Source: Archangium lipolyticum (GTDB lineage: Bacteria > Myxococcota > Myxococcia > Myxococcales > Myxococcaceae). Taken from it: a DNA stretch of 64,000 bases. Below, in pieces: positions 5,719 through 23,947 of the stretch. The notes under the pieces are model-generated. The model was not told where the DNA came from. It made no database searches and worked only from the letters and a program-made list of their open reading frames with translations. The stretch spans positions 124,001 to 188,000 of the forward strand of contig NZ_JANKBZ010000006.1 in the NCBI RefSeq assembly GCF_024623785.1, read 5' to 3'. How positions within the stretch are numbered: position 1 is the stretch's first letter; each line of letters starts with the position of its first letter. Position numbers and translations under genes: made by a program.

Positions 5719-6399
5719 TCACTTCCACTCGCAGACGGGCGAGCCGTTCACCACCGCGACGGCGTCCAGGTCGAACCCCCCCGCGGAGGAGCCGTAGGAG
5801 TTGGACCCGGTGTCACGGATGCGGACGAAGCGGGCCCGGGCCACACCGAGAGTGGACAGGTCGAAGCCATCACCGCCCGCCACGGCCGGATCGGTGGGGC
5901 TGATGCCATTCTCCGGCGAGGAGCTCACCGGCTTCACACCGGCGCAGCCAGGGTAGCCACCGGCCCTGTTGGCGGAGTCACAGGGGAACTCGTGCCACGT
6001 CTGGCCGTCCTCGCTCACGGCGACCACGCCCGTCTCCGCGAAGTACCCGAAGGCGTTCTCGAAGACGAGCAGGTCCACCCCGGGCCCGTCCACCACCCCG
6101 ATGTCGGTGAGCTCGAGGACGATCTCCCCGCCCCTGCCAAGGGAGAGCACGTCCAGCGAGCCCATGCCGGCGCCAGCCCCGTGAGGAGGCCCGAGCACGA
6201 TGTCCGGGTAGCCGTCCTGACCGAAGCCGGCGTCCTCCCCGGGAGAGAAGGACACGACCTTGTCCGCGAACGGCTCGTTGTCGCTCGTGCACACCAGGGC
6301 CTGGGGGGGCTCCTCCTCGGAGGGAGCCCCGCAACCCACGGCGAGCAGGGGCATGACGAGCCAGGCGCTCCAGCGCGCCACGGTGCCGTGCGTCCTCAT
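5719..6399 (-). CDS. outer-membrane lipoprotein, discoidin-like fold suspected
   Basis: 226 residues. The signal peptide ends in a lipobox (LAVGC, Cys at about 23), followed by a short acidic linker and one beta-rich domain (about 40-225). The domain contains GGEIVLELTDIGVVDGPG, FENAFG, SEDGQTWHEFPC and RARFVRIRDTG. This pattern resembles secreted coagulation-factor/discoidin-like binding domains often labelled 'cell surface protein'. The ATG overlaps the stop of the preceding lipoprotein gene (ATGA at 6396-6399), so the two are translationally coupled. The genetic setting next to corrinoid-uptake genes suggests a role in substrate capture at the cell surface, but nothing in the protein itself proves that. 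Confidence 0.8.
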   Translation of the reverse strand: MRTHGTVARWSAWLVMPLLAVGCGAPSEEEPPQALVCTSDNEPFADKVVSFSPGEDAGFGQDGYPDIVLGPPHGAGAGMGSLDVLSLGRGGEIVLELTDIGVVDGPGVDLLVFENAFGYFAETGVVAVSEDGQTWHEFPCDSANRAGGYPGCAGVKPVSSSPENGISPTDPAVAGGDGFDLSTLGVARARFVRIRDTGSNSYGSSAGGFDLDAVAVVNGSPVCEWK

Positions 6400-7739
6400 G
6401 GCTGGGGCTTCTGCTGGAGGCGGACGAGCCGGCGGCCGTTCTTGTCCTTCACGCCGATGAGCAGGTCCGGGCCCATGGGAGCCATCGACACCACGTTGGT
6501 GCAGGCGTTGCTGGTGGTGAGCACGGGCGTGAGGTCGCCCGCGGTGACGGCTTCGGGGTTGATGCCACCGGGCGTCAGCTCGATGCGAGAGACGTCGCGA
6601 GTGGCCGTGAAGGTACCGCGATGCAGCGCCACGCCACTGCCGAACCCCGCGACCGCCTGGAGGTCGTTGCCCGAGTAGATTTCAGGCGCGTTGGTGTTGG
6701 AGAGGGCGAGGGTCGTCCTGCCCGAGATCGCCGGCGTGTACAGGGCGGGAGCCACCGCGTGCAGGTGGTTGATGTAGGGGGCCCAGGGGTCGCTGGCGGA
6801 GCTGTCGGGGACGCCGTAGCCGAACACGGCGACCTTGTCGCTCGTCACCGCCGAGTAGCCGCTGGCGGCGAAGGCATTCGTGGTCGGGAAGGTCGCCAGC
6901 TTCGAGCCCTGGAAGGGCTTGGAGGCCAGATTCAGGGCGTAGACGGCGAGACCGCCCTCGGACACGCCGTCGATGCCCAGACCATTGATGAAGAAGGCGC
7001 CGGACACGGCGGCGGCGGAGAAATTACCGGGCGCGGAGACGTAGACGGAGTCCGCCGGGGTGACGGTGTCGTAGACGAGCACATTGCCGGGGCTGCCCGT
7101 GACGCCCCGGGTGTAACCGGTCAGCAGCCGGGTGCCATCGTTGGTGAGGAACCCGCTCGGGAAGGTGGTGTTGCCGCGATCCGCCTCGGGAACGACGGCG
7201 TAGAGGGCCGCCGACCCCAGGGTGATGCTCGGCCAGGTGCCGAGCGCGTAGATGCTGTCATCGGCGACACTGGTGTTGTCGGTATCGCGCAGGCCGTACA
7301 GCTTGTACTCGCTGCCGCTCTGGACGGCCGTCACCGCGCCGATTCCCTCGGGAATCGTGGCGGACTCGGCGGCGGAGAAGCCGGTCTGGAGCTGCAGCGT
7401 GCCGAGCTTCGGATCATGCGGCAGGTCCGCGCACGCGACCCCCGCGTCGGTCGGACCCGTGCCAGCGTCCGTGCCAGCATCCGTCCCCGTACCCGCGTCC
7501 GTGCCCGTCCCGGCGTCCGTCCCGGCATCCGAGCCGGTCTCGTCGGGGATGTCCTGAGTCACGCAGCGTTCGTCCACGCAGACGAACTGCTTGCCCTCAC
7601 CGGCGTTGCCCTTCCGCGCGCAGTCGAACTGATCCACGCACTCCGGCTCGCAGCCGGTGACCAGCAGCCCCAGCGCCGCGGCGCCCAGCGCCGCCGAGAA
7701 GCGACCGAACCACCGCGAACTCCTCGTTGCTGTCTTCAT
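6396..7739 (-). CDS. lipoprotein with Asp-Ala-Gly repeat linker and predicted beta-propeller-like domain
   Basis: 447 residues from the ATG at 7739, which is preceded by GAGGAGCAGGACGCGG. The signal peptide ends in LVTGC. A short Cys-containing head (four Cys within about 30 residues) is followed by a low-complexity DAGTDAGTG linker (about 70-105), then a roughly 340-residue beta-rich domain with recurring hydrophobic strand and Gly/Asp-turn patterns. I recognise no catalytic motif; a propeller-like ligand- or polymer-binding module is the best guess. It starts the two-lipoprotein operon with the gene at 5719-6399 and has its own sigma-70-type promoter just downstream of the tRNA genes. An upstream in-frame start at 7832 is less likely because it would bury the signal peptide. 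Confidence 0.8.
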   Translation of the reverse strand: MKTATRSSRWFGRFSAALGAAALGLLVTGCEPECVDQFDCARKGNAGEGKQFVCVDERCVTQDIPDETGSDAGTDAGTGTDAGTGTDAGTDAGTGPTDAGVACADLPHDPKLGTLQLQTGFSAAESATIPEGIGAVTAVQSGSEYKLYGLRDTDNTSVADDSIYALGTWPSITLGSAALYAVVPEADRGNTTFPSGFLTNDGTRLLTGYTRGVTGSPGNVLVYDTVTPADSVYVSAPGNFSAAAVSGAFFINGLGIDGVSEGGLAVYALNLASKPFQGSKLATFPTTNAFAASGYSAVTSDKVAVFGYGVPDSSASDPWAPYINHLHAVAPALYTPAISGRTTLALSNTNAPEIYSGNDLQAVAGFGSGVALHRGTFTATRDVSRIELTPGGINPEAVTAGDLTPVLTTSNACTNVVSMAPMGPDLLIGVKDKNGRRLVRLQQKPQP

Positions 7740-7846
7740 CCGCGTCCTGCTCCTCGCCCCCGCGGGCGCAATGCCTGCGAGGGGAAGCAGGGGCGGGAAT
7801 CTCCCTCGAGCCTCCACACCAGGGTGGAGCAACCGGCGAGGGGCGC

Positions 7847-7875
7847 GGGATACGGCGGACGACTTCTCTTGTCAA
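7847..7875 (-). promoter_or_regulatory. sigma-70-type promoter of the two-lipoprotein operon
   Basis: Reading the minus strand, TTGACA (7875-7870) and TATCCC (7852-7847) are separated by 17 bases. The start codon of the lipoprotein gene lies about 108 bases downstream. The -35 box is a perfect match; the -10 is partial. It sits only 7 bases beyond the 3' end of the last tRNA gene, so the lipoproteins can be transcribed independently of the tRNA and btu genes. Confidence 0.6.
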
Positions 7876-7881
7876 TGGGAG

Positions 7882-7956
7882 TACCGCGGGCGGGATTCGA
7901 ACCCGCAACCTCTGCGTTCTGAGCGCAGCACCTCTACCAGGTTGGGCTACCGCGGC
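7882..7956 (-). tRNA. atypical tRNA, anticodon CAG (Leu codon CUG) with short variable arm
   Basis: A 75-base cloverleaf: a 7-bp acceptor stem GCCGCGG/CCGCGGT (terminal G-U pair), D arm with GGTAGA, anticodon stem CTGCG/CGCAG with loop CTCAGAA, 5-base variable region AGGTT, and a perfect T arm GCGGG-TTCGAAT-CCCGC. The anticodon CAG would be leucine, but bacterial tRNA-Leu has a long variable arm, which is absent. The 3' CCA is not encoded. The aminoacylation identity is therefore unclear. It is the third of three tandem tRNA genes. Confidence 0.75.
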
Positions 7957-7976
7957 ATGTATTCATTCACTGCGAG

Positions 7977-8051
7977 TGCCGAAGGCGGGATTCGAACCCG
8001 CAACCACCAGACTCTCGATCTGGGGCCTCTACCGAGTTGGGCTACTCCGGC
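7977..8051 (-). tRNA. atypical tRNA-like gene, loop TCGAGAG (GAG anticodon if normally registered)
   Basis: A 75-base cloverleaf with acceptor GCCGGAG/CTTCGGC, anticodon stem CCAGA/TCTGG, a 5-base variable region TGGTT and the same T arm as its neighbour. The 7-base anticodon loop TCGAGAG puts C at position 33, where uridine is almost universal, and GAG at 34-36 (Leu). Shifting the register by one base restores U33 and gives CGA (Ser) but breaks the stem. Either way the variable arm is too short for a standard Leu or Ser tRNA. It may be non-canonical or not used in ordinary decoding. CCA is not encoded. Confidence 0.65.
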
Positions 8052-8091
8052 AACGGAGACTGCTGGACTGCGAAGGGCGGTGGACTGCGAG

Positions 8092-8164
8092 TACCCCGTA
8101 CGGGAGTCGAACCCGTCTTTCCGCATTGAGAGCGCGGTGTCCTTCGCCGATAGACGAACGGGGC
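8092..8164 (-). tRNA. tRNA-Glu (CUC)
   Basis: A 73-base cloverleaf with acceptor GCCCCGT/ACGGGGT, the D-arm sequence GTCTATCGGCGAAGGAC that is typical of bacterial tRNA-Glu, anticodon stem CCGCG/TGCGG with loop CTCTCAA (anticodon CTC), a 4-base variable region and T arm ACGGG-TTCGACT-CCCGT. The first pair is G-U and CCA is not encoded. It is the first of the three tandem tRNAs and lies just after a terminator; I see no clear promoter of its own. Confidence 0.85.
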
Positions 8165-8180
8165 GGGAGCTCGGGAGCCG

Positions 8181-8225
8181 GAAAAAGGAAGAGGCCGGGT
8201 CCCGTTTTCTGGGAGCCCGGCCTCT
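8181..8225 (-). terminator. intrinsic terminator after the 50-codon ORF
   Basis: On the minus strand AGAGGCCGGG (8225-8216) pairs perfectly with CCCGGCCTCT (8199-8190), with further TCCC/GGGA pairing in the loop, followed by TTCCTTTTT. This is the clearest rho-independent terminator in the window. It separates the btuC/50-codon-ORF unit from the tRNA genes. Confidence 0.8.
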
Positions 8226-8261
8226 GAGCACCGCGCCGCGTCGTATGACGGGGCGCGGAGG

Positions 8262-8414
8262 TCAGGTTCCGGGCAGTAGGCCGCGAAGGGACTCGAGGCC
8301 GTTCAGAAGGTCCAGAGCGGTATCCAGACCGGTGCGCGAGAGCACGTCGATGCCAGTGTCAGCGTCATTGAGGTGCTTGAGATTCATCGGGCTCTGCTTC
8401 GTCACCAGGGTCAT
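8262..8414 (-). CDS. 50-residue peptide gene, unknown function
   Basis: An ORF of 50 codons with a strong ribosome-binding site: AAAGGAG sits 8 bases before the ATG at 8414. The peptide begins MTLVTKQSPMNLKHL and continues with an amphipathic, Leu-rich stretch (TGLDTALDLLNGLESL), ending RGLLPGT. It has no Cys, no signal peptide and no membrane span. The leader-like Lys-containing N-terminus followed by a Ser/Thr/Asp/Gly-rich end would fit a ribosomal peptide precursor, a small regulator or a helix-forming protein; I recognise no family. It begins 63 bases after the btuC stop, ends just before an intrinsic terminator, and is followed by three tRNA genes. An in-frame ATG six codons upstream lacks a ribosome-binding site. 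Confidence 0.6.
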   Translation of the reverse strand: MTLVTKQSPMNLKHLNDADTGIDVLSRTGLDTALDLLNGLESLRGLLPGT

Positions 8415-8477
8415 GGTCACCGCTCCTTTCATCGAGAAAAGACGCGGCGGAAATCCGTTCCTGACAGCGGCCGCGCT

Positions 8478-9521
8478 TCAGCCCGCCGAGAGCCGCCCGC
8501 TCCGGTACAGCAGCGCCAGGAACAGCGGCCCTCCGAGGAGCGCCGTCACCACGCCCACGGGAGGCTCGGAGCCGAACAGCGGGATGGCCAGCCGCGCCAG
8601 CAGGTCGGCGAGCAGCAGGAACGCCGCCCCGCCGAGCGCGGAGAGCGGCACGAGCAACCGCTGGTCCGGCCCGAAGGCGAGCCGCAGCAGGTGGGGCACG
8701 ATGAGCCCCACGAAGCCGATGAGCCCCGAGAGCACCACGGCGTCCGCCACGCTGGCGCTCGCCGCGAGCAGCAACAAGCGCCGCGTCCAGACCACGGACA
8801 CCCCTAGCGAGGCCGCGTCCTCGTCTCCCAGCGTCAACAGGTTGAGCCGCCCCGAGAGCGCCAACATCACGCCGATGGCCACGGCCTGGATGAGCGCGGA
8901 CAGGATGAGCGTCCCCGTGCGCTCGTAACCGAGCGTCCCCGCGAGCCAGTAGAGGATCTCCCCGAGCCGGTTCGGGTCGGACAGCGTCTTCACGAGCGTG
9001 ATGACGGCGGAGGCGAAGGCGTTGAAGACGACGCCCGTGAGGAGCACGGCATAGGGCGCGCGACCGCCATGGCCGCGGCTGACCACGAGCACGAAGAGCA
9101 TGGCCGCCACGGCGCCCAGGAAGGCGAACAGGGCCGGTGCGGAGAGGCGCTCCATCCCTCCCCCGACGCCCACCTGGGCCACCTCCCCCACGGTGGCGAA
9201 CCCCAGGAACAGGGACAACGTGGCTCCGAGCGCGGCACCGCCGGACACACCGAGGACGAACGGGTCCGCCAGTGGATTGCGCAGCACGCCCTGCAGCGTG
9301 ACACCGGAGGCGGCGAGCCCCGCGCCCACGAGGGCCGCCAGCAGGGCACGCGGCAGCCGGACCGACCAGAAGATGATGGCACTGCTGGAGCTGGGATCGC
9401 CGAGCGCGTCGGAGAGGGAGATGGGCTGATCGCCGAAGCGCACGGCCACGAGGAAGGCCGCGAACAGCAGGATGAGGAACACCCCCCCGAGCCCGAGCGC
9501 TCGTGCCAGGGTGAAGCTCAT
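8478..9521 (-). CDS. btuC: FecCD-family ABC permease, probable cobalamin permease BtuC
   Basis: 347 residues with about ten hydrophobic segments, the inner-membrane channel subunit of a vitamin B12/siderophore-type importer. Family signatures include SVRLPRALLAALVGAGLAASG, split here as RLPRALLAALVGAGLAASG, then GVLRNPLADPFVLGVS, and near the C-terminus GLIGFVGLIVPHLLR. The start is the ATG at 9521; its purine-rich ribosome-binding sequence is supplied by a REP element. It lies 128 bases downstream of the btuF-like gene, and the ATPase is encoded separately at 221-1018. Cobalamin as the substrate follows from the shared riboswitch-led gene order, not from the permease sequence alone. Confidence 0.85.
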   Translation of the reverse strand: MSFTLARALGLGGVFLILLFAAFLVAVRFGDQPISLSDALGDPSSSSAIIFWSVRLPRALLAALVGAGLAASGVTLQGVLRNPLADPFVLGVSGGAALGATLSLFLGFATVGEVAQVGVGGGMERLSAPALFAFLGAVAAMLFVLVVSRGHGGRAPYAVLLTGVVFNAFASAVITLVKTLSDPNRLGEILYWLAGTLGYERTGTLILSALIQAVAIGVMLALSGRLNLLTLGDEDAASLGVSVVWTRRLLLLAASASVADAVVLSGLIGFVGLIVPHLLRLAFGPDQRLLVPLSALGGAAFLLLADLLARLAIPLFGSEPPVGVVTALLGGPLFLALLYRSGRLSAG

Positions 9522-9523
9522 CC

Positions 9524-9640
9524 TCCCTCTCCCTCTGGGAGAGGGGCGGGGGTGAGGGTCTACCGTCCCCATCTCACGCATTCTTCACCCACGGACGAGG
9601 GATGACCCTCACCCTAGCCCTCTCCCAGGGGGAGAGGGGA
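9524..9640. repeat. inverted pair of REP-like elements (REPIN-type)
   Basis: Two copies of a REP-like palindrome in opposite orientation fill the btuF-btuC gap. The plus-strand copy (9605-9640) reads ACCCTCACCCTAGCCCTCTC followed by a complementary GGGAGAGGG arm; the minus-strand copy is at 9524-9559. Each folds into a hairpin, and the two can also pair with each other. The same element recurs at 12122-12157 and 29149-29179. Such doublets are usually spread by RAYT transposases; none is encoded here. Confidence 0.75.
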
Positions 9641-9649
9641 CATACACGG

Positions 9650-10528
9650 TCAGTGCACAGTACCCGCATCGGGCTTCACGGAGGGGTACAGCAGCGAGAA
9701 GAGCTCCTCCAGCCCTCTTCCGAGCGACGGTCCTGGCTGTAGCAGCGCCATCGAGGGCACCTCCACCCACCGCGCCTGGGAGAGCCCCGGAAGCCTCATG
9801 AACTTGTCCTTGCCCACGTCCACGTCCGCGGCATCCACCACCACGTCCGGCCGAGCAGTCAGCGCGCGCTCGAGCGAATAGACGGGGTAGGCCGAGCCCG
9901 CGTCCGCCGCCACGTTGACGGCGCCAGCGTCGCGCAGCAGCTCGTCCGCGAAGGAGCCGGGCCCGGCCACCACGAGCGGCTCGAAGCCGTAGACGAACAG
10001 GACACGCCTCGGCTTCCGTGTCCTGGCGGCCTCTCGCACGCGGGTACGCGTGGACTCGATGCCCTGAACGAGGGCATTCGCCTCCTTCTCCCTTCCGAGC
10101 ACCTTTCCCACCGCGCGCAGGGCCGCCAGGGTATCCGCCACGGTCTGCAGGGGCAGCAGCAGCACGGGCACACCGAGCTCGGCCAGCTTCTCCACGGGCC
10201 GCTGGTTGCCAGGGCTCGGCTGCACGAGCAACAGGTCCGGTTTGAGGACCACCACGGCCTCGACGGACGGGTCGATGAAGCCGCCCACGCGGGGAAGGCC
10301 GGCCACCTCCTTGAATTCGTCGAAGCGCGAGACACCCACGAGCGAGCTCCCGGCCCCGAGGGCCAGCACCGTCTCCGTGAGCGACGGGGCGAGCGTCACC
10401 ACGCGCTTCACCTTCTCCGGGGGCTTGGGGCCCAGGAAGCGAGGGCCCGCCTGGGGAGGGGCGGCGTGCGCCACGGAGACGAGGCACAGCGCGACGAACA
10501 GGGCGAACGGAACGAGACGGGTCTTCAT
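9650..10528 (-). CDS. btuF: periplasmic cobalamin/siderophore-binding protein, BtuF-like
   Basis: 292 residues. The signal peptide (MKTRLVPFALF...AHA) is cleavable with no lipobox, followed by a PBP2-type fold: RVVTLAPSLTETVLALGAG, KPDLLLVQPSPGN, RRVLFVYG and the C-terminal lobe ending in ELFSLLYP. This is the metal-chelate-binding class with a single linking helix. It delivers the substrate from the periplasm to the BtuC-like permease encoded next. The ATG at 10528 lies 7 bases after the stop of the propeller lipoprotein gene, consistent with one transcript from the riboswitch. The substrate assignment is by context. Confidence 0.85.
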   Translation of the reverse strand: MKTRLVPFALFVALCLVSVAHAAPPQAGPRFLGPKPPEKVKRVVTLAPSLTETVLALGAGSSLVGVSRFDEFKEVAGLPRVGGFIDPSVEAVVVLKPDLLLVQPSPGNQRPVEKLAELGVPVLLLPLQTVADTLAALRAVGKVLGREKEANALVQGIESTRTRVREAARTRKPRRVLFVYGFEPLVVAGPGSFADELLRDAGAVNVAADAGSAYPVYSLERALTARPDVVVDAADVDVGKDKFMRLPGLSQARWVEVPSMALLQPGPSLGRGLEELFSLLYPSVKPDAGTVH

Positions 10529-10535
10529 GGGAGGC

Positions 10536-12170
10536 TCAGGGCATCGCGACGACATCACCGACGAGGGAGGGCTTGTTGTCGCGCGGGCAGGCGAGGATGG
10601 GCGGCTCGGCACCGGGTCCGAACCCTCGGCGTTCCACGAGCGAGTCACCCACCACCTCGATGACGAAGACACGGCCCGCGTTGTTGTCACCCACGTAGGC
10701 GCGGTTGCCCACCACGGAGAACCGGCCAGCCGAGGGGAGCGGGCACGAAGTCGCCTCCGGGCACCGCAGCGCGAGCGAGGCGGCCACGCGGTCATCCGCG
10801 CCGATCAGCACCAGGCCGGTCCCCCTCACGTCGATGAGGTTGAAGTTGCGGTCATAGGTCGTCCCACCGCCGCAGCTCACGAGCAGCCGCTCCCCCATGG
10901 AAACGACCCAGAACGGGTTGAGGCAACCCTCGCCGAGCTCGATGAGAGCCACCGCGCGGGTGGAGGGATCGATGCGGGCCAGGAACCCGGGGCCTCCGAC
11001 GGTGAAATCCCTCGGGTCCAGATTACCGAGGGCGGCATACACCCGGCCCTGATGCGAGGCGATGCCCGCGGGAGCGGGGACGGTGGTGCGGCCCGCGAAG
11101 GGCTTCAGCGCCTCGCCCGTGGGCAGCGTGAAGACATCCGTGATGCCCGGTGCGGTGGGATCGGCCATCGAGACGCGGGCCACCTTGCCACCCGCGGACG
11201 GGTCCGTCTGGAGATTGCCCAACAGCGTGACGTACACGTCCGAGCCCGACTCCGTGAACCCGTACGGGTTGGTATTCGCGCCGAAGTTCACGCTGCCCAC
11301 GTTGGTGAGCGTGATGCCATCGGAGAAGCGAGGACCGGGGCCGCCGGAGGGCTCCTCGTCACGCCGGAGCACCTGCAGGGTGTTGCTGGTGGAGTTGAGG
11401 ACGAAGACGTAGGGATCCCGGACGAGGAGCTGGTTGGGGACCAGCCCCGTGGTGTTCCGGGCGGGCAGCTCGCCGTAATCGGAGAGCCGGGCCTGGAGGA
11501 GCCGCATGGAGGCATCCAGCACCAGCAGCACGTCCTGCATGCGTGCGACGGATTGAGGACTGGTGCCCACGGCCACCGCGGGCCCCTTCACGTCCGGCCC
11601 CGCCTGGATGCCCACCACCTGCCCGGTGTTGAAGCACGCGGCGACGAGGTCATAGGTGCACGTCCCACCGCGACAGCTCTGGACGTCCGGGCACACATTA
11701 CCGCAGGCGCCGCAATGGAAGGCATCCGTGCCGGGGTCTACACAGGAGCGGTCGCAGCGTACGGAAGACGCCAGGGTGCAAGCGGCCTTGCACTGTCCCT
11801 GCTCACAGACCTGCTCCGGAGAGCACGCCGTGCCGCCCTCGCCCGCGCAGCCACCACAATGGGCGGGGTCCGACGAGGTGACGACACACTGGCCACCGCA
11901 CACCGTGGCTCCCGAGCGACACCGACAGGAGCCCTCGACACAAGCCTCCGTGGCGGAGCACTCAACCCCACAGGCCCCGCAGTGAGACGAGGAGCTGGAG
12001 AGGTCGACACAGACCTCACCACAGCGGGTCTGCTCCTCGACACACAAGGGGCCCTCGTCGGGGCAAGCCGTCAGGAGCAGGGGCAACAACACCAACGTCA
12101 ACCGGCTCAACACGGTGTATGCCCCCTCTCCCTCTGGGAGAGGGCTGGGGTGAGGGTATTTCCGCATCAT
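10536..12170 (-). CDS. surface lipoprotein with Cys-rich stalk and YncE-like beta-propeller
   Basis: 544 residues from an ATG at 12170 that overlaps the btuB stop (ATGA), so translation is coupled. A lipobox (LLLTAC) ends the signal. The next 150 residues carry repeated Cys modules of the HCGACG type, forming a rigid stalk. The rest (about 190-544) has repeated strand patterns such as DVLLVLDAS, YVFVLNSTSNTLQVLR, DVYVTLLGN and NRAYVGDNNAGRVFVIEV, typical of a YncE-like propeller. In Bacteroidetes the B12-binding BtuG lipoproteins are propellers encoded with BtuB; by analogy I infer a corrinoid-capture lid on BtuB. Codons 5-18 are REP-derived; a GTG at 12113 with a purine-rich leader is an alternative start that gives a shorter, cleaner signal peptide. 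Confidence 0.8.
   Translation of the reverse strand: MMRKYPHPSPLPEGEGAYTVLSRLTLVLLPLLLTACPDEGPLCVEEQTRCGEVCVDLSSSSSHCGACGVECSATEACVEGSCRCRSGATVCGGQCVVTSSDPAHCGGCAGEGGTACSPEQVCEQGQCKAACTLASSVRCDRSCVDPGTDAFHCGACGNVCPDVQSCRGGTCTYDLVAACFNTGQVVGIQAGPDVKGPAVAVGTSPQSVARMQDVLLVLDASMRLLQARLSDYGELPARNTTGLVPNQLLVRDPYVFVLNSTSNTLQVLRRDEEPSGGPGPRFSDGITLTNVGSVNFGANTNPYGFTESGSDVYVTLLGNLQTDPSAGGKVARVSMADPTAPGITDVFTLPTGEALKPFAGRTTVPAPAGIASHQGRVYAALGNLDPRDFTVGGPGFLARIDPSTRAVALIELGEGCLNPFWVVSMGERLLVSCGGGTTYDRNFNLIDVRGTGLVLIGADDRVAASLALRCPEATSCPLPSAGRFSVVGNRAYVGDNNAGRVFVIEVVGDSLVERRGFGPGAEPPILACPRDNKPSLVGDVVAMP
12122..12157 (-). repeat. REP-like element inside the start of the propeller lipoprotein gene
   Basis: A minus-strand copy of the element described at 9524-9640, with CCCTCTGGGAGAGGG as the core hairpin. 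It lies within the first 16 codons of the lipoprotein gene when the coupled ATG is used, encoding a PHPSPLPEGEG stretch ahead of the hydrophobic signal core. Confidence 0.75.
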
Positions 12171-14146
12171 GGAGCCTCTGTCCTGGAATCCGAAGAGGAC
12201 TCCCTGGGAGAACCCGGCCCGAAAGCACCGGCCACCGACAGGTACACGGCACGGCCGGGGAGTGGGTACCCAATGAAGTCCTCGGCGTGAACGTCGAACA
12301 AGTTCTTCACCTCGCAGGAGACGGTGAGCTCCGTGCGCGAGCCGAAGGAGCTGGACAGGCCCGCGTGGACGAAGGTGCGTCCGGGCAGGGACATGGCGCC
12401 ATCCCGGGTAAGGAAGTGTGCCGACTGCGCGACCACCTCGACCCGCCCCGTGAGCCACCGGGGGCCGCCCAGGACTCGCGCGGCCAGCTTGTGGCGAGGC
12501 CGGTAGGGCAGCTCGCGCAGATAGAAGCGGCCATCGCGCTGCAGGTCGCTCGAGACGGTGAGCGTGTAGCTGAAGGCCCCGGAGAGGAGCGGATGGGGCC
12601 GCCACTCGCCCTCGGCCTCGAGCCCCACCACCCGCGCGTTGGCGAAGTTGTACGGCTTGGCGGCGCCAGGCGGGTAGGCCTCGTAGGAGATGAGGTCCTC
12701 ATAGAGGCTGGCGAAGCCTCCCACCGAGGCGAAGGACACCTCCGAGCGGTGCACCACGGCCGCGTCCGCGTACAGGGCGCTCTCGGGGCGCAGGTCCGGG
12801 TTGGGAAGCAGCGTGCCCTGACGCACGTACAGCTCCAGGAAGGAGGGCGCGCGGTGCGAGCGGCCCGCGTTGGCGCGCAGCTCGAGGCCCGCGGGCAATG
12901 CCACGGTGACGCCCACCTTCGGGGACAGCAGCGTGTACGGACCCGCCCGCTCCAAGCGGAGCGACGGAGCGACGGTGAGCAACCCGTCCCACAGCAGCAG
13001 CTCGTCCATCGCCATCACGCTGGCGCGCAGCCACGCCGGCTCACCCCCGGACGCGGCGTTCGTCTCCGCGGCGGACACGGACTCTCCGCCCACGCCCACC
13101 AGCGCGGACAGCGAGTGCCATCCGCCCAGCAGCACCTGCCCCTCCACCTCCACCCCGCCGAGCAACTGCACCTGCGCGCCCTGCTGTCCCCACGGGCCAC
13201 CGGACAGCGTCAGCCGGTCCCGCCGGAAGTACGCGCGCGCGTTCGTCCGCACGCCACCCGGCAGCGTGCCCGCGAGCCGCAGGTTGGCCGAGCCACGCGC
13301 TCCGGACTGGCGCGTGTCCTCGCTCGGGTTCTGCGCGGTGCCGGCGAGGCCCCGCTCGTCGAAGGAGAGCTCGCCCAGCAGGTCCGCCGAGAAACCCCGG
13401 CCCAGGTCCCTCCGCAGCCGCAGCAGGCCTCCGGCACCTCGCGCGTCGTTGTTGGTGCGCTGGCGCTCGATGAGCGCGTCCCCGGGCAGCGTGGGGCTCG
13501 GATCGAAGGAGTACGGGAAGCGCCCGCTGGAGGTGCCTCCGTGGACGAGCAGCAAGGCCTCGCCGCCCGCGAGCGGCCCCGTGGCGGACAGCCACCCCGT
13601 GGCCGTGTCCCAGCTCCCATAGGAAAGCTCTCCCGCCGCGCGCGGAGCCGCGCCGGGACGGCGGGTGATGACGTTGATGGCGCCGCCCAACCCTCCCGAG
13701 CCGTAGCGCGCGCCAGCCCCCCCCCGCAGCACCTCGAAGCGCTCGGCCAGGGCCACGGGCACACGCGACAGGTCCGCGATGCCCCCCGCGCCATTGAGGG
13801 GGATGCCATCGAGCAGCACGAGCGTCCCGTTGGAGGACGCGCCCCGCACCACCAGGCTCTTGCTCTGCCCGTACCCGCCCAGGTCCTGCAGCGTGACGCC
13901 GGGGGCGGTGGACAACATCGCCGCGGTGTCGCGGGCCGCGCCGCCGAACTCATCCACGCGGATGACGGTGACGGCGCCGCTCGGATCCCTGCGCGAGGCC
14001 TCCTCCGGAGACCCGGGGGCGACGGGCGCCTCCTCCACCTCCACGGCGGGAACGAGCAGGGGCTCCTCGGCCTCCTGGGCGAGCGCGACGCCACTCGTGC
14101 TGAGCGCCAGGCAGAGCCACCGCCCGGCGAGGTACGACCGCCGCAT
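12167..14146 (-). CDS. btuB: TonB-dependent outer-membrane receptor, cobalamin type (BtuB)
   Basis: 659 residues. The signal peptide ends near GVALAQ, with a possible TonB box in PAVEVEEAPVA. The plug (about 50-165) contains APGVTLQDLGGYGQ, VRGASSNGTLVLLDGIPLNG and YGSGGLGGAINVITRR. A beta-barrel follows, with the TonB-receptor C-terminal motif region DLRPESALYADAAV and a terminal strand RAVYLSVAGAFG. Unusually, about 16 Ser/Arg/Pro-rich residues follow the last aromatic strand, where most barrels end in Phe. The start at 14146 has GGAAGG upstream and lies about 60 bases after a cobalamin riboswitch, which is the main evidence for the substrate. It is the first gene of the uptake operon. Confidence 0.9.
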   Translation of the reverse strand: MRRSYLAGRWLCLALSTSGVALAQEAEEPLLVPAVEVEEAPVAPGSPEEASRRDPSGAVTVIRVDEFGGAARDTAAMLSTAPGVTLQDLGGYGQSKSLVVRGASSNGTLVLLDGIPLNGAGGIADLSRVPVALAERFEVLRGGAGARYGSGGLGGAINVITRRPGAAPRAAGELSYGSWDTATGWLSATGPLAGGEALLLVHGGTSSGRFPYSFDPSPTLPGDALIERQRTNNDARGAGGLLRLRRDLGRGFSADLLGELSFDERGLAGTAQNPSEDTRQSGARGSANLRLAGTLPGGVRTNARAYFRRDRLTLSGGPWGQQGAQVQLLGGVEVEGQVLLGGWHSLSALVGVGGESVSAAETNAASGGEPAWLRASVMAMDELLLWDGLLTVAPSLRLERAGPYTLLSPKVGVTVALPAGLELRANAGRSHRAPSFLELYVRQGTLLPNPDLRPESALYADAAVVHRSEVSFASVGGFASLYEDLISYEAYPPGAAKPYNFANARVVGLEAEGEWRPHPLLSGAFSYTLTVSSDLQRDGRFYLRELPYRPRHKLAARVLGGPRWLTGRVEVVAQSAHFLTRDGAMSLPGRTFVHAGLSSSFGSRTELTVSCEVKNLFDVHAEDFIGYPLPGRAVYLSVAGAFGPGSPRESSSDSRTEAP

Positions 14147-14204
14147 GCATCCGCCTTCCACTCTCTCCGTCGAAGAGAGAAGGCCATCGCGGACGCCTCG
14201 CGCC

Positions 14205-14432
14205 CACACCCCCGGGCAGGTCTCCTGACTCCCGGGACTCCGGCCGAGGCGCACGCCGCGCCTGCCAGAAGGGCTCCTCCGCCTTCCGCCAGCCCGCGAG
14301 CCGGAGTGGCGACTGCCGAGGATCCCCGCCCTGACGTCAGGGCCGCCCGATCACAGTGGCGGGACCGCGCCGGACTCTCACCGGCTTCCCTCTTGAAGGC
14401 CCGGCATGGGCACCCAAGGGCAGGCCCTTCCT
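14205..14432 (-). promoter_or_regulatory. cobalamin riboswitch upstream of btuB
   Basis: The minus strand shows the conserved core GCCGGTGAGAGTCCGGC, then GCGGTCCCGCCACTGTGA, and near its 3' side the B12 box AGTCAGGAGACC. A variable part with the perfect hairpin GCCCTGACGTCAGGGC (14329-14344) lies between. A small hairpin (CTCTC/GAGAG, about 14160-14180) between the box and the btuB ribosome-binding site could be the expression platform. Adenosylcobalamin binding is known to lower expression of the downstream uptake genes. End points are approximate. Confidence 0.93.
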
Positions 14433-22030: not shown

Positions 22031-22040
22031 GAAACGCCCG

Positions 22041-22889
22041 ATGCACCCGACCTCGCACACTCCACGCCGCGACAGGCGGACCATCTCGAGCCCGGCGCTC
22101 CTGCGCTGGCTGCTCATCGGCGTGGCGCTCGTCTTCCTCGGGGTCTTCCTCGTCGTCCCGCTGGTGGCCGTCTTCACCTACGCCCTGCAGAAGGGCGTGG
22201 GCAGTTACCTGGCGGCCATCCTGGAGCCGGAGGCGCTGAGCGCCATCCGCCTCACGCTGCTGGCGGCCGCCATCGCCGTGCCCCTCAACTTCGTCTTCGG
22301 GCTCTCCGCCGCGTGGCTCATCGCCCGCTTCCGCTTCCCCGGCCGGGACGTGCTCCTCACGCTCATCGACCTGCCCTTCAGCGTGTCGCCCGTCATCGCG
22401 GGGCTCATCTTCGTCCTGCTCTTCGGCCGGCAGGGGTGGCTGGGCCCGTGGCTGGACGCGCACGACATCCACATCATCTTCGCCGTGCCCGGCATCGTGC
22501 TGGCCACCGTGTTCGTCACCTTCCCCTTCGTCGTGCGCGAGGTGCTGCCCGTCATGCAGGCGCAGGGCGCCGACGAGGAGGAGGCCGCCCTCACCCTGGG
22601 GGCCAGCGGCTGGCGCACCTTCCTGCGCGTCACGCTGCCCAAGGTGAAGTGGGGCGTGCTCTACGGCGTGCTGCTGTGCAACGCGCGGGCGATGGGCGAG
22701 TTCGGCGCCGTGTCCGTCGTCTCCGGCCACGTGCGCGGGGTGACCAACACGCTGCCGCTGCACGCGGAGATTCTCTACAACGAGTACAACCTCGCCGGTG
22801 CCTTCGCCGTGGCCTCGCTGCTCACGGTGCTCGCGCTGGTGACGTTGGCCGTCAAGAAGTACGTCGAGTGGAAGGCCGAGGTCCCATGA
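22041..22889 (+). CDS. cysW: sulfate/thiosulfate ABC permease CysW
   Basis: 282 residues, six predicted spans, partner of CysT. The EAA loop reads DEEEAALTLGASGWRTF, and MGEFGAVSVVSGHVRG is the CysW-type C-terminal signature. The stop overlaps the cysA start (ATGA at 22886-22889). Confidence 0.93.
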   Translation: MHPTSHTPRRDRRTISSPALLRWLLIGVALVFLGVFLVVPLVAVFTYALQKGVGSYLAAILEPEALSAIRLTLLAAAIAVPLNFVFGLSAAWLIARFRFPGRDVLLTLIDLPFSVSPVIAGLIFVLLFGRQGWLGPWLDAHDIHIIFAVPGIVLATVFVTFPFVVREVLPVMQAQGADEEEAALTLGASGWRTFLRVTLPKVKWGVLYGVLLCNARAMGEFGAVSVVSGHVRGVTNTLPLHAEILYNEYNLAGAFAVASLLTVLALVTLAVKKYVEWKAEVP

Positions 22890-23947
22890 GTGTCATCGTC
22901 GAGCAGCTCACCAAGCGCTTCACCACCGGGGGGACCCCAGCCGTCTCGGACGTGTCGTTCCACGCCCCCTCCGGCGCCATCACCACCCTGCTCGGGCCCT
23001 CGGGGGCGGGCAAGTCCACCCTGCTGCGCCTCATCGCCGGGCTGGAGCTGCCGGACTCGGGTTCCGTCCGCATCGAGGGCGTCGACTGTACCCACCTGCC
23101 CGTGCAGCAGCGCGGCATCGGCGTCGTCTTCCAGAGCTACGCGCTCTTCAAGCACATGACCGTGCGGCAGAACATCGCCTTCGGGCTGGAGACGCGCCGC
23201 ATGCCCCGCGCCGACGTGGAAGCGCGCGTGGACGAGATGTTGCGCCTCATCCAGTTGGAGGATCTGGGCAAACGCTACCCCACGCAACTTTCCGGCGGGC
23301 AGCGCCAGCGCGTGGCCTTCGCGCGGGCGCTCGCCATCCGCCCCAAGCTGCTGCTGCTGGACGAGCCCTTCGGCGCGCTCGACAGCCGCGTGCGCGTGGA
23401 GCTGCGCGAGTGGCTCCACTCCCTCCACGAGCAGACGGGTGTCACCACCCTGCTCGTCACCCACGACCAGGAGGAGGCGCTCGAAATCTCCCAGCACGTG
23501 GTCGTGCTCTCCGACGGCCGCGTGGCCCAGGCCGGCCCGCCGGAGGACATCTACGACCGCCCCGCCACCCCGTTCGTCGCCTCCTTCGTGGGCGGCACCA
23601 GCGTCCTGCGGGGACATGTCCGCTCGGGCCGCGCCGAGGTCGGCTCCCTGGTGGTGCAGGCCCCCAACAGCGCACGCGAGGGCGAGGCCGTCCACGCCTT
23701 CGTCCGTCCCCACGACATCAAGATCGCCAAACCCCCGCAGGGCACCACCGGGCCCGTCACCGGCCGGGTGGAGCGGCTCAAGTCCGTGGGCGGATACGTG
23801 AAAGTGCTGCTCAAACTGCCCACCGGGGAAACCGTGACGGTCGAAGTCCCCCGCTCCGAGTTCGAAAACCTGGGAGTGGTCGAGGGCGATCGTGTGCATG
23901 CGGACGTAAGGACAGCCACCGTGTTCCTCGGTGATTTCGCTATCTGA
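22886..23947 (+). CDS. cysA: sulfate/thiosulfate ABC transporter ATPase CysA
   Basis: 353 residues. The nucleotide-binding domain has Walker A GPSGAGKST, Q-loop FQSYALF, signature LSGGQRQR, Walker B LLLLDEPFGALD and switch His in LVTHDQEEA. The C-terminal third is a TOBE-type regulatory domain (EGEAVHAFVRPHDIKI, then VKVLLKLPTGETVTVEVPRSEF, abbreviated here to VKVLLKLPTGETV). It energises CysTW import of sulfate. It is the last gene of the sbp-cysTWA operon; no clear terminator follows before the DUF2378 gene. Confidence 0.95.
   Translation: MSVIVEQLTKRFTTGGTPAVSDVSFHAPSGAITTLLGPSGAGKSTLLRLIAGLELPDSGSVRIEGVDCTHLPVQQRGIGVVFQSYALFKHMTVRQNIAFGLETRRMPRADVEARVDEMLRLIQLEDLGKRYPTQLSGGQRQRVAFARALAIRPKLLLLDEPFGALDSRVRVELREWLHSLHEQTGVTTLLVTHDQEEALEISQHVVVLSDGRVAQAGPPEDIYDRPATPFVASFVGGTSVLRGHVRSGRAEVGSLVVQAPNSAREGEAVHAFVRPHDIKIAKPPQGTTGPVTGRVERLKSVGGYVKVLLKLPTGETVTVEVPRSEFENLGVVEGDRVHADVRTATVFLGDFAI

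Follow-up and report, generated by a model that had tools for sequence, protein, structure and literature searches.

In Bacteroides, BtuG and BtuH are thought to capture vitamin B12 for the receptor BtuB (PMC12751083), and the C-terminal extension of BtuG1 is reported to be homologous to the B12-binding protein BtuH2 (PMC10404256; PMC8941943). BtuG has been described as exclusive to Bacteroidetes (eLife 2018, PMC6143338), and work on BtuH has centred on gut Bacteroidetes, with three exceptions among the Firmicutes (mBio 2022, PMC8941943). Here we describe a locus in the myxobacterium Archangium lipolyticum, within a stretch of 64,000 nucleotides (nt) of contig NZ_JANKBZ010000006.1 that is referred to below as the window. 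It comprises a riboswitch-led btuB-like gene, a gene for a propeller lipoprotein (PROP), btuF- and btuC-like genes, and, beyond three tRNA genes, genes for two further lipoproteins (lp5 and lp6). With a probability of about 0.7, we take the locus to be the outer-membrane half of a system for corrinoid uptake that follows the plan of BtuB-BtuG-BtuH in Bacteroides; we see it as the Myxococcota counterpart of that capture complex and not as a wholly separate invention. Among the papers listed on BtuG and BtuH and on myxobacterial BtuB and cobalamin, no title or abstract opening describes this system.

All of the locus genes lie on the minus strand, and in the order of that strand the locus reads as follows (window coordinates):

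14198..14432, minus strand: cobalamin riboswitch leading btuB (RF00174, 49.6 bits, E 2.2e-9; above the gathering score of 31.5 bits)
12167..14146, minus strand: btuB-like TonB-dependent corrinoid receptor gene (P0001; Plug and TonB barrel); the best NCBIfam model is TIGR01779 TonB-B12 (4e-37, 128 bits), below its cut-off of 599.7
10536..12170, minus strand: PROP, a lipoprotein with a Cys-rich stalk (residues 25-172) and a predicted seven-bladed propeller (residues 180-544), from the translation, NF041328 and an AlphaFold2 model
9650..10528, minus strand: btuF-like periplasmic corrinoid-binding protein (Peripla_BP_2 8e-31; PRK03379 BtuF 1.3e-25, below cut-off)
8478..9581, minus strand: btuC-like permease (FecCD 5.6e-81; BtuC models score best)
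8262-8432, minus strand: reading frame of 56 amino acids (MKGAVTMTLVTKQSPMNLKHL...)
7881-8164, minus strand: three tRNA genes, between btuC and lp5
6396..7739, minus strand: lp5, a lipoprotein with the lipobox VTGC (by eye), a short Cys-rich head and a DAGT-rich linker followed by a domain, from the translation; pairs with lp6 in relatives
5719..6399, minus strand: lp6, a lipoprotein with the lipobox AVGC (by eye) and a predicted BtuH-like jelly-roll domain, from an AlphaFold2 model and its match to the BtuH domain of BtuG1

A single-sequence search with the PROP domain hits 122 of the 145 genomes examined from the order, and a profile search hits 153 of 195 from the phylum. Conserved linkage with btuB had been set beforehand as a test. 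PROP lies immediately 3' of btuB in all 41 informative loci among 42 named ones (L116 is set aside, its contig beginning inside PROP), and btuB directly precedes PROP in 39 of 40 regions of a further set, the exception (L071) being a second PROP copy. A same-strand RF00174 riboswitch is present upstream of btuB in 37 of 40 regions, which span 39 genera and include families with only weakly similar PROP; the genera g13 and g17, whose contigs end near or inside btuB, were excluded from this test. In the counts given here L209 stands as a miss, though its contig stops after 1.2 kb. One locus of the Myxococcus type, L119 (BNCN01000012.1), comes from a record that bears the title Comamonas sp. KCTC 72670 and looks mislabelled or contaminated. 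Because at most five RF00174 riboswitches are listed per genome, the association of riboswitch and btuB-PROP cannot come from chance, and the conservation of the neighbourhood far exceeds it.

An earlier note on this DNA, made from the sequence alone, had described the riboswitch before btuB, an ATGA coupling of btuB to a propeller lipoprotein with a Cys-rich stalk, and btuF then btuC downstream; each of these is borne out, the first and last by the matches and gene order given above. The ATGA overlap joins the btuB stop to the PROP start and is also present in Archangium-group relatives without the dispersed repeat that follows it in the window (junction alignment), so that the overlap was not created by the repeat. 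A strict in-frame ATGA occurs in 10 of the 41 named loci that have a btuB/PROP pair, and the first in-frame ATG or GTG falls within 30 nt of the btuB stop in 36 of the 41 (tallied by hand). The stalk, at residues 25-172, matches NF041328 (MXAN_6577-like Cys-rich) with an E-value of 5.6e-42; PROP is the only place in the genome where this model scores above its cut-off, with three other sites matching weakly. The lipobox, read by eye from the translation, is LLTAC, with Cys36.

The riboswitch before btuB is one of three RF00174 matches in the 12.6-Mb genome. A second precedes a CbiM-like cobalt-uptake gene, on a contig that also holds CbiC, and the third precedes a class I ribonucleotide reductase (frames recognised by eye in both cases); together the three riboswitch-led loci form a coherent B12 regulon.

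An AlphaFold2 model of PROP, made with 42 sequences, has a predicted local distance difference test score (pLDDT) of 94.8 and a predicted template-modelling score of 0.93, and its strand list reads as seven blades. The propeller predicted earlier is thus recovered, and within what a prediction can show the fold class is established. Foldseek returns the BtuG chains 8ptd, 8ptf, 8okv, 3dsm, 8bmx and 8bn0 with template-modelling scores of 0.51-0.58, which are among the highest of its best 50 matches, where BamB and others also appear; the matches of Foldseek and VIA-align alike are filled by propeller chains. A plain phmmer search of PROP against the PDB gave only chance Cys-rich matches to the stalk. 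Because many other propellers fit as well or better, the predicted fold places PROP in the propeller class with no kinship to BtuG singled out, and a special kinship is not shown by the models. The earlier description of PROP as BtuG-like therefore holds only for gene context and fold class, and does not hold for family membership by PF16819.

The AlphaFold2 model of lp6 (pLDDT 82.6, with the signal region poor) has as its best match the BtuH domain of B. thetaiotaomicron BtuG1 (8blw_B 388-660; Z 12.4, root-mean-square deviation 3.4, 155 aligned residues, 21% identity), with the following row at Z 9.6; the next structural matches are CBM32 domains, including that of AlyQ. By the published account BtuH2 itself resembles other structures only weakly, AlyQ among them (PMC8941943). 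The best 50 VIA-align matches of lp6 hold neither 7biz nor a chain labelled DUF4465/BtuJ, an absence that excludes nothing.

A bridge that is independent of the structural model is offered by L200 (G126:C1:61387-62724), a clear BtuH protein from a small-genome myxobacterium of the same family, which is led by a riboswitch (G126:C1:61020-61222; the likely start of L200 lies about 165 nt 3' of it). Its domain matches BtuG1 at 4e-47 and BtuH2 at 2.1e-40, and it also has a PKD domain and a Cys-rich stalk of the PROP-type family (E 2.8e-20, below cut-off). The lp6 profile recovers L200 at 1.5e-5; in turn, L200 as a query over 195 genomes matches 22, namely itself and 21 others, all 21 falling in genes also found by the lp6 profile (compared by eye), with the window lp6 at E 1.0e-4. 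Alignment of the lp6 family with L200 by hhalign gives a probability of 96.6 and an E-value of 6e-10 over 93 columns. Prediction and sequence together make it well supported that lp6 is a distant relative of the BtuH domain. The earlier note had taken the two extra lipoproteins for a separately evolved surface complex, which this kinship contradicts in the case of lp6.

In BtuH2, Asn399 and Gln333 are reported to contact the ligand toward the phosphate and ribose, and Phe401 to lie beside the lower ligand (PMC8941943). An offset of 100 in the 7biz residue numbers, counted by hand from the L200 alignment, sets these contacts on N, Q and F. The Asn and Phe fall within the motif GNAF, and hhalign pairs GNAF with ENAF of lp6. 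The corresponding N115 and F117 of lp6 are invariant in 31 of 31 rows and in 26 of 26 of a phylum-wide set, and the Gln333 equivalent is not conserved. Corrinoid binding by lp6 is only suggested by these residues. A fused PROP and lp6 gene, as in BtuG1, was not found: no lp6-containing frame in 20 phylum loci had PROP as its best match.

The genes for lp5 and lp6 overlap by an ATGA at 6399-6396. There is no Pfam or NCBIfam match for lp5, its relationship to PROP is rejected by hhalign (probability 0.6%), and its profile matches in the PDB are to the linker repeat or by chance only. In the window three tRNA genes intervene between btuC and this pair, and the earlier association of the two lipoproteins with the locus therefore stands as regulon partnership with btuB and not as membership of the btuB transcript as such. 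In a close sister genome (G047, with a PROP 95% identical) the space from the tRNA genes to lp5 holds a 96-bit riboswitch (L054:13730-13925), and alignment of the two loci, whose flanks match, locates its absence:

7796..7806, minus strand: deletion point of the lp5 riboswitch, placed by eye; about 170 bp absent relative to G047

Searching 7000-8600 of the window with RF00174 gave no match up to E 10, which excludes a residual riboswitch to that level, and none was found before lp5 in L058 either. Elsewhere, 14 of 20 regions carry a same-strand RF00174 no more than 4 kb upstream of lp6, among them 11 of the 13 from the order and three of the seven from beyond it, and six of ten further loci from other classes have one near lp6. 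Because some of these genes sit far from btuB, lp5-lp6 counts as an independent member of the regulon; the pair belongs to the same regulon as btuB and forms its own riboswitch-led operon in relatives. Following loss of the riboswitch, the operon may have become constitutive in the window strain.

On the reading that we favour, scarcity of corrinoid would permit, through the riboswitch, production of BtuB, PROP, BtuF and BtuC. PROP, lipid-anchored by way of a Cys-rich stalk that is probably disulfide-bonded, would most likely cap BtuB and pass corrinoid into it; BtuB would import the corrinoid using TonB energy, and BtuF would deliver it to BtuC, working with an ATPase encoded elsewhere. The short BtuH-type lp6 and lp5 would probably constitute a second capture module that gathers corrinoid for BtuB; a riboswitch of its own would normally control this module, and in this strain the deletion would have released it from that control. 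Corrinoid binding by PROP, lp5 and lp6, cell-surface exposure, docking on BtuB and hand-over of the ligand are the steps that we infer.

Several observations weigh against so close a parallel with Bacteroides. By sequence PROP is not a member of the BtuG family: PF16819 leaves the window PROP unmatched and matches only one of 42 PROP members (E 0.061), none of its 30 sites in 145 genomes overlaps a PROP site (compared by eye), and a PROP profile reaches BtuG chains among PDB sequences only at E 0.11-0.68. VIA-align fits PROP better to 1l0q (Z 32.9) and to lactonases (29-31) than to BtuG2 (28.1). The loops of the top face, presumed to be the ligand face, exceed those of the other face only slightly in conservation (permutation p 0.0255, with the faces assigned manually), and a charge dipole of the BtuG2 type is not seen, the two faces (-4.5 vs -5.8) lacking the asymmetry that goes with the negative face reported for BtuG2. 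As for lp6, it falls some 60 residues short of the BtuH domain in length, its aligned part does not reach the residues that contact the corrin ring (Tyr510, Trp511, Trp577 and His476), and the lp6 profiles A4 and A6 did not find BtuH among PDB sequences. Upstream of btuB, no RF00174 was found in three of the 40 regions (L129, L137 and L143). Finally, a lipobox is the sole localisation signal seen in PROP.

This last point favours a different placement, in which PROP faces the periplasm as an inner-leaflet outer-membrane lipoprotein, either moving corrinoid from BtuB to BtuF or steadying BtuB from inside. It would accord with the frequent position of btuF directly after PROP, and with the high place that Foldseek gives to BamB, a propeller lipoprotein of the periplasm; we nevertheless think it unlikely, given that the regulon partner lp6 is akin to BtuH, a surface protein in Bacteroides, and that the BtuH-type protein L200 bears a Cys-rich stalk too. 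Rather less probable in our view is that PROP binds no corrinoid, and is instead a partner of BtuB in structure or assembly, or a lactonase-type enzyme, that merely shares the operon. The propeller fold serves many functions, lactonases and BamB are as good a structural fit as BtuG, and corrinoid-binding residues could not be mapped, but the linkage to riboswitch-led btuB extends across 39 genera and the best-conserved columns of PROP are commoner in top-face than in bottom loops. We give very little credence to the idea that lp5-lp6 is an unrelated surface module, such as a CBM32-like carbohydrate binder, that chance has placed close to the btu genes in the window. In its favour, the window lacks a riboswitch for the pair and CBM32 domains come next among the structural matches of lp6; however, relatives carry a riboswitch of its own before the pair even where it is apart from btuB, lp6 has its kinship to BtuH, and the AlyQ whose CBM32 matches lp6 is a structure that BtuH2 is reported to resemble (PMC8941943).

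A broader alternative, tentative and to us the less convincing account, though a possible one, is that the propeller with its disulfide-bonded stalk is unrelated to BtuG, was recruited independently by Myxococcota as a lid for BtuB, and is combined with an ancient BtuH-type capture protein; the superfamily of the latter, including LIC_13355 of Leptospira, would then be a widespread and unrecognised group of corrinoid-binding surface proteins.

The dispersed repeat mentioned above lies at the junction of btuB and PROP:

12116..12162, no strand assigned, edges approximate: repeat copy extending the PROP 5' end; absent at this site in L058-L060

It stands directly after the PROP ATG in the window and in four relatives, adding about 19 residues ahead of the signal peptide; since it sits just after that start, GTG 12113 is the likelier start of the signal peptide and the likely working start of PROP. 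The repeat (CCTCACCC..CCTCTCCC) recurs at 9503-9640 and genome-wide, at gene junctions, with 342 exact pattern matches versus 0 for a reversed control pattern, and lengthens reading frames with PHPSPLPEGEG-like peptides. The initial 20 codons of btuC stem from a copy of it, and ATG 9521 is the likelier start of that gene. No btuD-like ATPase gene adjoins btuC. The sole frame found in the window with both ATP-binding cassette ATPase motifs (22031-23944, plus strand) is long and distant from btuC, and no btuD was therefore identified in the window. The 56-amino-acid frame between btuC and the tRNA genes is kept in five Archangium-group loci, is duplicated in three (L055, L056 and L057), and could be a small peptide precursor. 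The nearest relatives of the strain among the named genomes are Archangium lansinium and A. violaceum.

CbiC/CobH was found in 12 of the 145 genomes of the order and in none of the other 133, and by this one marker most of the order look incapable of corrin-ring synthesis. CbiC is present in the genome of the window strain, where the uptake system would therefore be one of salvage. If our favoured reading is correct, capture by lipoproteins ahead of BtuB would be a common trait in a phylum with many predators of the soil, and this way of securing a scarce vitamin would be much more widespread than has been supposed. The finding further gives uncharacterised lipoproteins of the lp6 and LIC_13355 type a possible function that can be tested. 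Direct tests are feasible, since PROP and lp6 are small proteins whose domains are soluble and Myxococcus xanthus is amenable to genetics.

With BtuB-BtuCDF of E. coli the locus has btuB, btuF and btuC in common, and differs in having no btuD beside btuC; we know of no lipoproteins of the PROP or lp type in E. coli. The LIC_13355 family is related to lp6 through NF033170, which all 31 aligned lp6 sequences match at E <= 0.01, with the window lp6 (26.8 bits) under the curated cut-off of 120. According to a paper whose main text does not contain the words B12, cobalamin or BtuB, LIC_13355 of Leptospira binds laminin and plasminogen (PMC11891782). DUF4465/BtuJ is also reported as a B12-binding beta-jelly-roll lipoprotein of riboswitch-led loci (PMC13398666, PMC12751083); no DUF4465 protein was found in the order here, PF14717 having matches in 0 of 145 genomes. 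Compared with BtuG2, PROP is unmatched by PF16819, has an MXAN_6577-type Cys-rich stalk and no charge asymmetry, and would bind corrinoid only by our reading; the BtuB-BtuG systems of Bacteroides (BtuG2, PDB 3DSM, 8BMX; PMC6143338, PMC10404256) likewise have the gene for a riboswitch-led TonB-dependent B12 receptor beside that for a seven-bladed propeller lipoprotein. Relative to BtuH, lp6 is shorter, is a stand-alone lipoprotein paired with lp5, and is not alignable over the part that makes the corrin-ring contacts, whereas it resembles BtuH2 (PDB 7BIZ) and the BtuH domain of BtuG1 (PDB 8BLW; PMC8941943) in its predicted fold, in reciprocal matches and in the invariant Asn and Phe.

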